Origin: a virus
Virus record (IMG/VR): IMGVR_UViG_3300010399_000008
Span: 1 to 64,000 of that record
Length of the DNA stretch: 64,000 nucleotides
Reading direction: 5' to 3' (one strand)
Within the stretch, counting starts at the first letter, position 1. Each line of letters opens with the position of its first letter. The notes beneath the pieces were generated by a model. It worked only from the letters and a program-made list of their open reading frames with translations. It searched no databases and was not told where the DNA came from. The position numbers were made by a program, and so were the translations under genes. Positions 42,485-42,616 of this stretch are shown piece by piece.

Positions 42485-42616
42485 TGCGGGCCGAAGCGAA
42501 TTGGGTTATCACTCTTGAAAAGTGGGAGTCTGGGTTCGAATCCCAGCGCCGGGCGAAAGCCGGGTGTGGTGTAACGGTAGCATCCTAAAACATCCAGTTC
42601 CAAACACTTGCCCGCA
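42485..42616 (+). ncRNA. YrlA-type Y RNA: Ro-binding stem plus tRNA-mimic domain
   Basis: Closing stem TGCGGGC/GCCCGCA (42485-42491, 42610-42616), internal loop CGAAGC opposite CAAACACTT, second stem GAATTGG/CCAGTTC (42498-42504, 42594-42600), then GTTATC. The distal part is tRNA-like: stem-loop TCACT-CTTGAAA-AGTGG, T arm CTGGG-TTCGAAT-CCCAG (42530-42546), acceptor-like CGCCGGGC/GCCGGGTG closed by GAAA (42547-42566, one G-G mismatch), then D arm GTGT/GCAT with AACGGTA loop (42569-42583). This order (T arm, closed acceptor, D arm) matches known bacterial YrlA tRNA mimics. Confidence 0.82.

Follow-up and report, generated by a model that had tools for sequence, protein, structure and literature searches.

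Analysis of the sequence and its predicted folding confirms that nucleotides 42485 to 42616 of the viral DNA studied here encode a Y RNA of the YrlA type, i.e. a circularly permuted tRNA-like domain carried on a Ro-binding stem. This identity is backed by the structure, the Ro-binding signature, a Ro gene located 18 nt downstream, and an explicit search beside Ro genes that gave 27 permuted elements, including that of the window. All the parts described in the original prediction of a tRNA-mimic Y RNA are present where they had been placed, and the MFE fold reproduces their order. The prediction had overlooked the Ro gene, a minimal Y RNA and a neighboring linear tRNA-Y RNA.

The window is the whole stretch of DNA that was analyzed, comprising positions 1 to 64,000 of IMGVR_UViG_3300010399_000008, a virus record of 64.5 kb. 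The record encodes an HK97-type capsid, portal, terminase and integrase, and these genes make a temperate tailed phage the most likely identity of the virus. An open reading frame at 41272-41850 opens with a FEQLESRCL motif resembling planctomycete proteins, which we take to be a hint of the host. The solved structures nearest to the phage Ro60/Rsr protein are those of Ro60 and Deinococcus Rsr (PDB 9nen, 1yvp and 2nvo). The gene has two possible starts, of which the ATG at 42638 is spaced better than that at 42635 relative to the GGAGG. No promoter or terminator consensus was found near the Y RNA locus of the window. A trypsin-like peptidase is encoded directly downstream of ro (44648-45604), and the phage genome also contains a caspase-like gene (Peptidase_C14; 49698-50495) and a TnpB/OrfB gene of the IS605 type (19279-20505).

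Table 1. Features of the Y RNA locus in the window, and helix-69 Y RNAs at other Ro loci (L numbers). R1 and R2 are the covariance models described in the text.
Feature	Position	Strand	Sequence and basis
Minimal Y RNA (Ro stem and short hairpin, without tRNA module)	42321-42382	+	GAGGGCCGAAG..ACTTGCCCTC; partial R1 match, E 3.4e-6
Linear tRNA-like RNA with inserted capped Ro stem	42387-42483	+	R2 match; Rfam tRNA; fold
Permuted tRNA-mimic Y RNA (YrlA type), entire element	42485-42616	+	R1 model match; MFE fold
Ro stem, 5′ strand	42485-42491	+	UGCGGGC; partner strand 42610-42616
Bulged C of permuted Y RNA	42492	+	GAAG next
Second (upper) Y stem, 5′ strand	42498-42506	+	GAAUUGGGU; pairs with 42592-42600; leads into GGUUAUC
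Anticodon-like hairpin (likely by comparison)	42509-42525	+	UCACU-CUUGAAA-AGUGG (U33, anticodon UGA, A37, A38); comparative
T arm	42530-42546	+	CUGGG-UUCGAAU-CCCAG; fold; aligns to Rfam tRNA T arm
Acceptor-like stem	42547-42566	+	CGCCGGGC / GCCGGGUG, GAAA cap 42555-42558; fold; acceptor pairs covary in relatives
D arm	42569-42583	+	GUGU-AACGGUA-GCAU; fold
Ro stem, 3′ strand	42610-42616	+	GCCCGCA; conserved CACUU immediately 5′
Shine-Dalgarno-like GGAGG of ro	42628-42632		
Ro60/Rsr orthologue, 543 aa	42635-44266	+	TROVE E 3e-42; vWA_Ro60 E 5e-65; phrog_850
Helix-69 Y RNAs, phage	L030:2534-2714; L038:5732-5923		
Helix-69 Y RNAs, bacterial	L241:7283-7486; L251:2909-3078; L265:4951-5193; L319:7012-7179		

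In the MFE fold the chain passes through the Ro stem, a second stem, a stem-loop, the T arm, the GAAA-capped acceptor-like stem and the D arm before returning to the Ro stem. The order within the tRNA-like body is anticodon-like arm, variable region, T arm, acceptor strand, GAAA turn, acceptor strand and D arm, so that the Ro strands enclose D, T and acceptor-like arms in a permuted order, which is the YrlA arrangement. The Ro-binding signature GGGC-C-GAAG / ACUUG-CCC is found in the element, giving it the lower stem of a bacterial Y RNA. Pair probabilities are highest in the Ro stem (0.96-1.0 in six of seven pairs) and the acceptor-like stem (0.93-1.0, with one G-G mismatch). They are 0.73-0.93 in the second stem, after which GGUUAUC is common to the relatives, 0.70-0.95 in the T arm, and moderate (0.63-0.80) in the D arm. 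In place of an open acceptor with room for CCA, the two acceptor strands are joined by GAAA; since the acceptor is sealed in this way, aminoacylation of the permuted element is ruled out.

The order of the tRNA parts matches that of a permuted tRNA gene, whose product might be made into a working tRNA-Ser by ligation and cleavage, as algal and archaeal ones are. We consider this very improbable here. With GAAA alone joining the acceptor ends there is no space for CCA, the Ro stem shows conservation and covariation, the long variable arm of tRNA-Ser is missing, and an RtcB ligase was looked for in this phage and none was found.

Ro loci were gathered from viral contigs, bacterial genomes and isolated phages. 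Fifteen permuted relatives, with the window sequence excluded, were used to build a covariance model (R1). This model matched 42485-42616 with 73.1 bits (E 4.7e-17), and the one further match it gave in the 64 kb is the partial one to the minimal Y RNA. The folding energy of the element has a z score of -2.07. Covariation across the 15 relatives scores 0.609, compared with 0.220 for shuffles and at most 0.231 for slid controls. The Ro stem and D arm are paired in 100% and the acceptor in 96% across these relatives, which were picked partly by acceptor pairing, so that the variety of pair types weighs more than the pairing percentage.

General-purpose searches were largely silent. ARAGORN reported nothing in the window, and the whole-window scan with Rfam gave nothing at the gathering threshold. 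Applied to the permuted element, the Rfam tRNA model covers the 3′ half alone, at 21 bits and under threshold. Neither the window nor any of 14 related loci that were scanned gave a YrlA-type match to Rfam at threshold, and release 15 may lack a YrlA family. A scan of viral contigs with the DNA pattern GCCGAAG..GGTTATC gave mostly chance matches. The silence of ARAGORN, and of Rfam at its thresholds, would suit decayed tRNA genes that pair by chance. That explanation is refuted by the matches to window-free models (E 4.1e-10 for the linear element, and the R1 match above) and opposed by the acceptor covariation, and we assign it a negligible probability.

The permuted element is the last of three Ro-binding RNAs (minimal, linear and permuted) arranged head to tail ahead of ro. 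The gaps between them are 4 and 1 nt, and because of this their processing from one transcript is likely. We note a GAAA-capped hairpin, CCAAUGUGGC GAAA GCCAUGUCGG, at 42291-42316, just 5′ of the minimal Y RNA. The linear element comprises an acceptor stem (GCGGATG/CATCCGC), a D arm, CGAAT/ATTCG at the position of the anticodon stem, a T arm and a discriminator T. The anticodon loop of a functional tRNA is replaced by a Ro-binding stem with a GTT cap, GCACUUGCUCA-GUU-UGAGCCGA, with GCTCA-GTT-TGAGC at 42428-42440 of the DNA. Pair probabilities are 1.0 in the acceptor and 0.89-0.97 in CGAAU/AUUCG; the D arm is confident and the T arm weaker (0.21-0.74). A covariance model from 15 linear relatives, again with the window sequence excluded (R2), matches the element at 45.9 bits. 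The Rfam tRNA model applied to it scores 37.8 bits, above the cut-off of 29, a match that was unreported in the whole-window scan. The linear unit thus retains an acceptor and a T arm, features recognized by tRNA-end nucleases.

The position of the permuted element in the leader of ro raises another explanation, i.e. that Rsr binds the Y RNA beside the Shine-Dalgarno site and shuts off its own translation. The element ends (at 42616) 18 nt from an ATG and 11 nt from the GGAGG, and the gap is similarly short at locus L018. At L029, however, the Y RNAs are separated from ro by a hairpin and T run resembling a terminator, and at L038 ro is followed by several tRNA-like elements. We therefore regard such cis regulation as rather improbable.

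Elements with the linear topology are present at about 40 further Ro loci, both phage and bacterial. R2 counts about 25 elements in 18 of 80 non-duplicate viral loci, and finds them in about 20 of 80 bacterial loci (at least 55 bits over at least 100 nt, the permuted reading not better, as read from the tables and with the model-building loci included). By our reading of the same tables, no locus among those counted other than the window has both topologies adjacent and non-overlapping. The acceptors of the linear elements show two-sided changes at all seven positions with 100% pairing; by contrast, halves taken from different units form merely 3.9 of the 7 pairs. The Rfam tRNA model independently covers several linear elements over 120-136 nt (L006, L015, L284 and L038).

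Linear elements also occur head to tail, with two at L006, three at L198 and four at L038. A permuted reading of L006 was rejected, its acceptor complementarity pointing to two linear units. Tandem linear arrays are located at L198:6862-7248, L038:5117-5733, L284:2521-3250 and L277:3267-4167; the acceptor differs in each unit of an array, and the anticodon often does. Across neighboring tandem units at L171, L198, L242 and L280 the permuted model scores 58-64 bits. Such a match begins with the Ro 5′ strand and the tRNA 3′ half of a unit and continues into the next unit, whose tRNA 5′ half and Ro 3′ strand complete it. This suggests that a permuted element could arise by loss of the outer halves of a tandem linear pair, i.e. 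by the classical tandem-duplication route, and the tandem units would offer a concrete path to circular permutation of an RNA.

The stem-loop that follows the second stem was originally predicted to be a retained anticodon arm with anticodon UGA. Comparison with other elements supports this, whereas the folding energy of the window sequence does not. The hairpin as then drawn has a pair probability of 0.1, and a competing, shifted hairpin, ACUCUU/GGGAGU (42511-42516/42524-42529), has one of 0.85; the full structure with the shifted hairpin is better by 3.6 kcal/mol. We surveyed 52 tRNA-like Ro elements from 41 loci (25 linear and 27 permuted) for a hairpin with 3 bp or more and a 7 nt loop NUNNN(A/G)A directly after GUUAUC. 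Such an arm is present in 18 of the 52, compared with a mean of 0.74 and a maximum of 4 in shuffled segments. At least 14 anticodons are represented (GUU, UAU, UCG, CAU, GAU, GCU, GCA, AUU, AAG, UUU, ACG, UGC, UGG and UGA), and the isolated actinophages LinStu and Sixama carry such arms. In a roughly equal number of elements there is an alternative state, in which the anticodon stem is retained and continues into the Ro stem. A clear 7 nt loop is missing in two thirds of the set, and some elements have lost the arm. The loop CUUGAAA of the window element belongs to the kind with a hairpin after GUUAUC. An anticodon arm is thus likely by comparison, while unproven for this particular sequence. 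The arm had been thought more complete than expected for YrlA; it is indeed encoded, but about a third of the relatives share one.

These loops raise the possibility that Ro particles display anticodon arms in order to occupy or exhaust host anticodon nucleases activated on infection, the sealed acceptor barring the RNA from translation. The excess of NUNNNRA loops over shuffles and their many anticodons are in keeping with this, anticodon nucleases are evaded by phage tRNAs (PMC10264068), which suits the phage setting, and Salmonella YrlA has been proposed as a possible competitive inhibitor of an anticodon nuclease. Yet the nuclease did not cut Salmonella YrlA (both PMC7790460), most elements lack the clear loop, the arm is not the best fold in the window element, and elements are also found in bacterial chromosomes, not all of which are necessarily prophages. 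On balance we think a decoy of this kind unlikely.

The mimicry in the Y RNA family may extend beyond tRNA. Six Y RNAs beside Ro genes carry, after GUUAUC, all or part of the helix-69 region of 23S rRNA, (CCGUAACUAUAA)CGGUCCUAAGGUAGCGA. The claim is based on four of them, L265, L030, L251 and L319. In L265, 29 nt are identical to E. coli 23S rRNA and the helix-69 hairpin can form; in L030, 21 nt are common to 23S rRNA, with a score of 42 against a shuffle maximum of 31. L038 and L241 retain the region in part, and L038 by itself is not significant. The 23S similarity of these RNAs was undetected in an Rfam search, and most of 12 viral matches to a helix-69 pattern are not Ro RNAs.

Further RNAs were observed at these loci. 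A 190 nt RNA at L038:4812-4998 combines a Ro stem with an internal module unlike tRNA, 23S or 16S rRNA, and phage tmRNA genes lie near a Ro gene and Y RNAs at L030:1635-2055 (Rfam, 127 bits) and L032:1058-1501 (107 bits). The nematode stem-bulge RNA family ceN72-3_ceN74-2 of Rfam is above its cut-off on minimal phage and bacterial Y RNAs (L246:4863-4936 and L022:4811-4883). At L162 solely minimal Y RNAs lie near the Ro gene; because such loci carry minimal Y RNAs alone, the tRNA module is dispensable for some phage Ro proteins.

The phage RNA is probably a tether on Ro with a tRNA-like bait for a putative host protein. We favor this because of the R1 match, the fold and its pair probabilities, the adjacent Ro gene, the 27 permuted elements, and the covariation of Ro stem and acceptor. 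The permuted Y RNA and its two neighbors would be cut out of the leader of the phage ro transcript, with the linear tRNA-like unit marking the cut sites for tRNA-end nucleases. The CGAAG/ACUUG stem would be bound by the ring of phage Rsr, and the tRNA-like end, with its acceptor sealed and uncharged, would hold a host protein that recognizes tRNA elbows. Candidate partners are PNPase and enzymes that modify, repair or cleave RNA. The captured protein could then serve as an effector for the Ro ring, or be kept away from real tRNAs. Together, the minimal, linear and permuted RNAs could give several phage Ro particles with differing ends. A Deinococcus Y RNA has been shown to tether Rsr to PNPase, and the host enzymes TruB and DusA accept YrlA as a substrate (PMC8394870; PMC7790460); they are reported to modify the T and D loops of known YrlA (PMC8394870).

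More tentatively, and with clearly less confidence, Ro loci in general might encode modular, Ro-anchored mimics of the translation machinery, i.e. linear or permuted tRNA with varied anticodon arms, and helix 69. Those of phages would act as lures for tRNA- and rRNA-cleaving or -modifying enzymes of the host, and the permuted forms would derive from tandem linear ones.

YrlA has been known for a decade, and to our knowledge has no identified partner for its tRNA-like end. Linear and permuted forms, diverse anticodon arms and the helix-69 class make the purpose of the mimicry testable: each bait can be tested for the anticodon nuclease, modification enzyme or ribosome-binding protein that it captures. 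The 2014 YrlA paper reportedly counted >250 bacteria and phages with a Y RNA near Ro. Little work seems to have been devoted to the linear twin or to retained anticodon arms; the literature searched, outside which the main YrlA papers (2014 and 2018) lie, contains no report of the linear topology, systematic anticodon arms or the helix-69 class, although this does not establish that they are new.

Circularly permuted tRNA mimicry by a bacterial Y RNA (PMC11472068) and the occurrence of YrlA in phages (PMC7765460) have already been published, so the window element belongs to the known YrlA RNAs. Like YrlA of Salmonella Typhimurium (6CU1; found in bacteria and phages, Wolin laboratory), it is permuted relative to tRNA, forms a Ro stem from its open ends, has D, T and acceptor-like arms and lies beside an Rsr gene. 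Reviews describe D, T and acceptor arms in YrlA (PMC8394870), to which the window element adds the sequence of a fourth, anticodon-like arm; it also differs in its GAAA-capped acceptor and in the linear tRNA-like partner alongside. With minimal Y RNAs, animal Y RNAs and nematode sbRNAs it shares the bulged-C lower stem, CGAAG / ACUUG and GUUAUC, but these lack the tRNA module. Algal and archaeal permuted tRNA genes have the tRNA halves in the same reversed order; they mature to working tRNAs, whereas here the acceptor is sealed and the Ro stem joins the other ends. Nuclease-resistant phage tRNAs are likewise phage-encoded and tRNA-like, with real anticodon loop sequences; unlike them, the window element has a Ro-binding stem and is not a translating tRNA.
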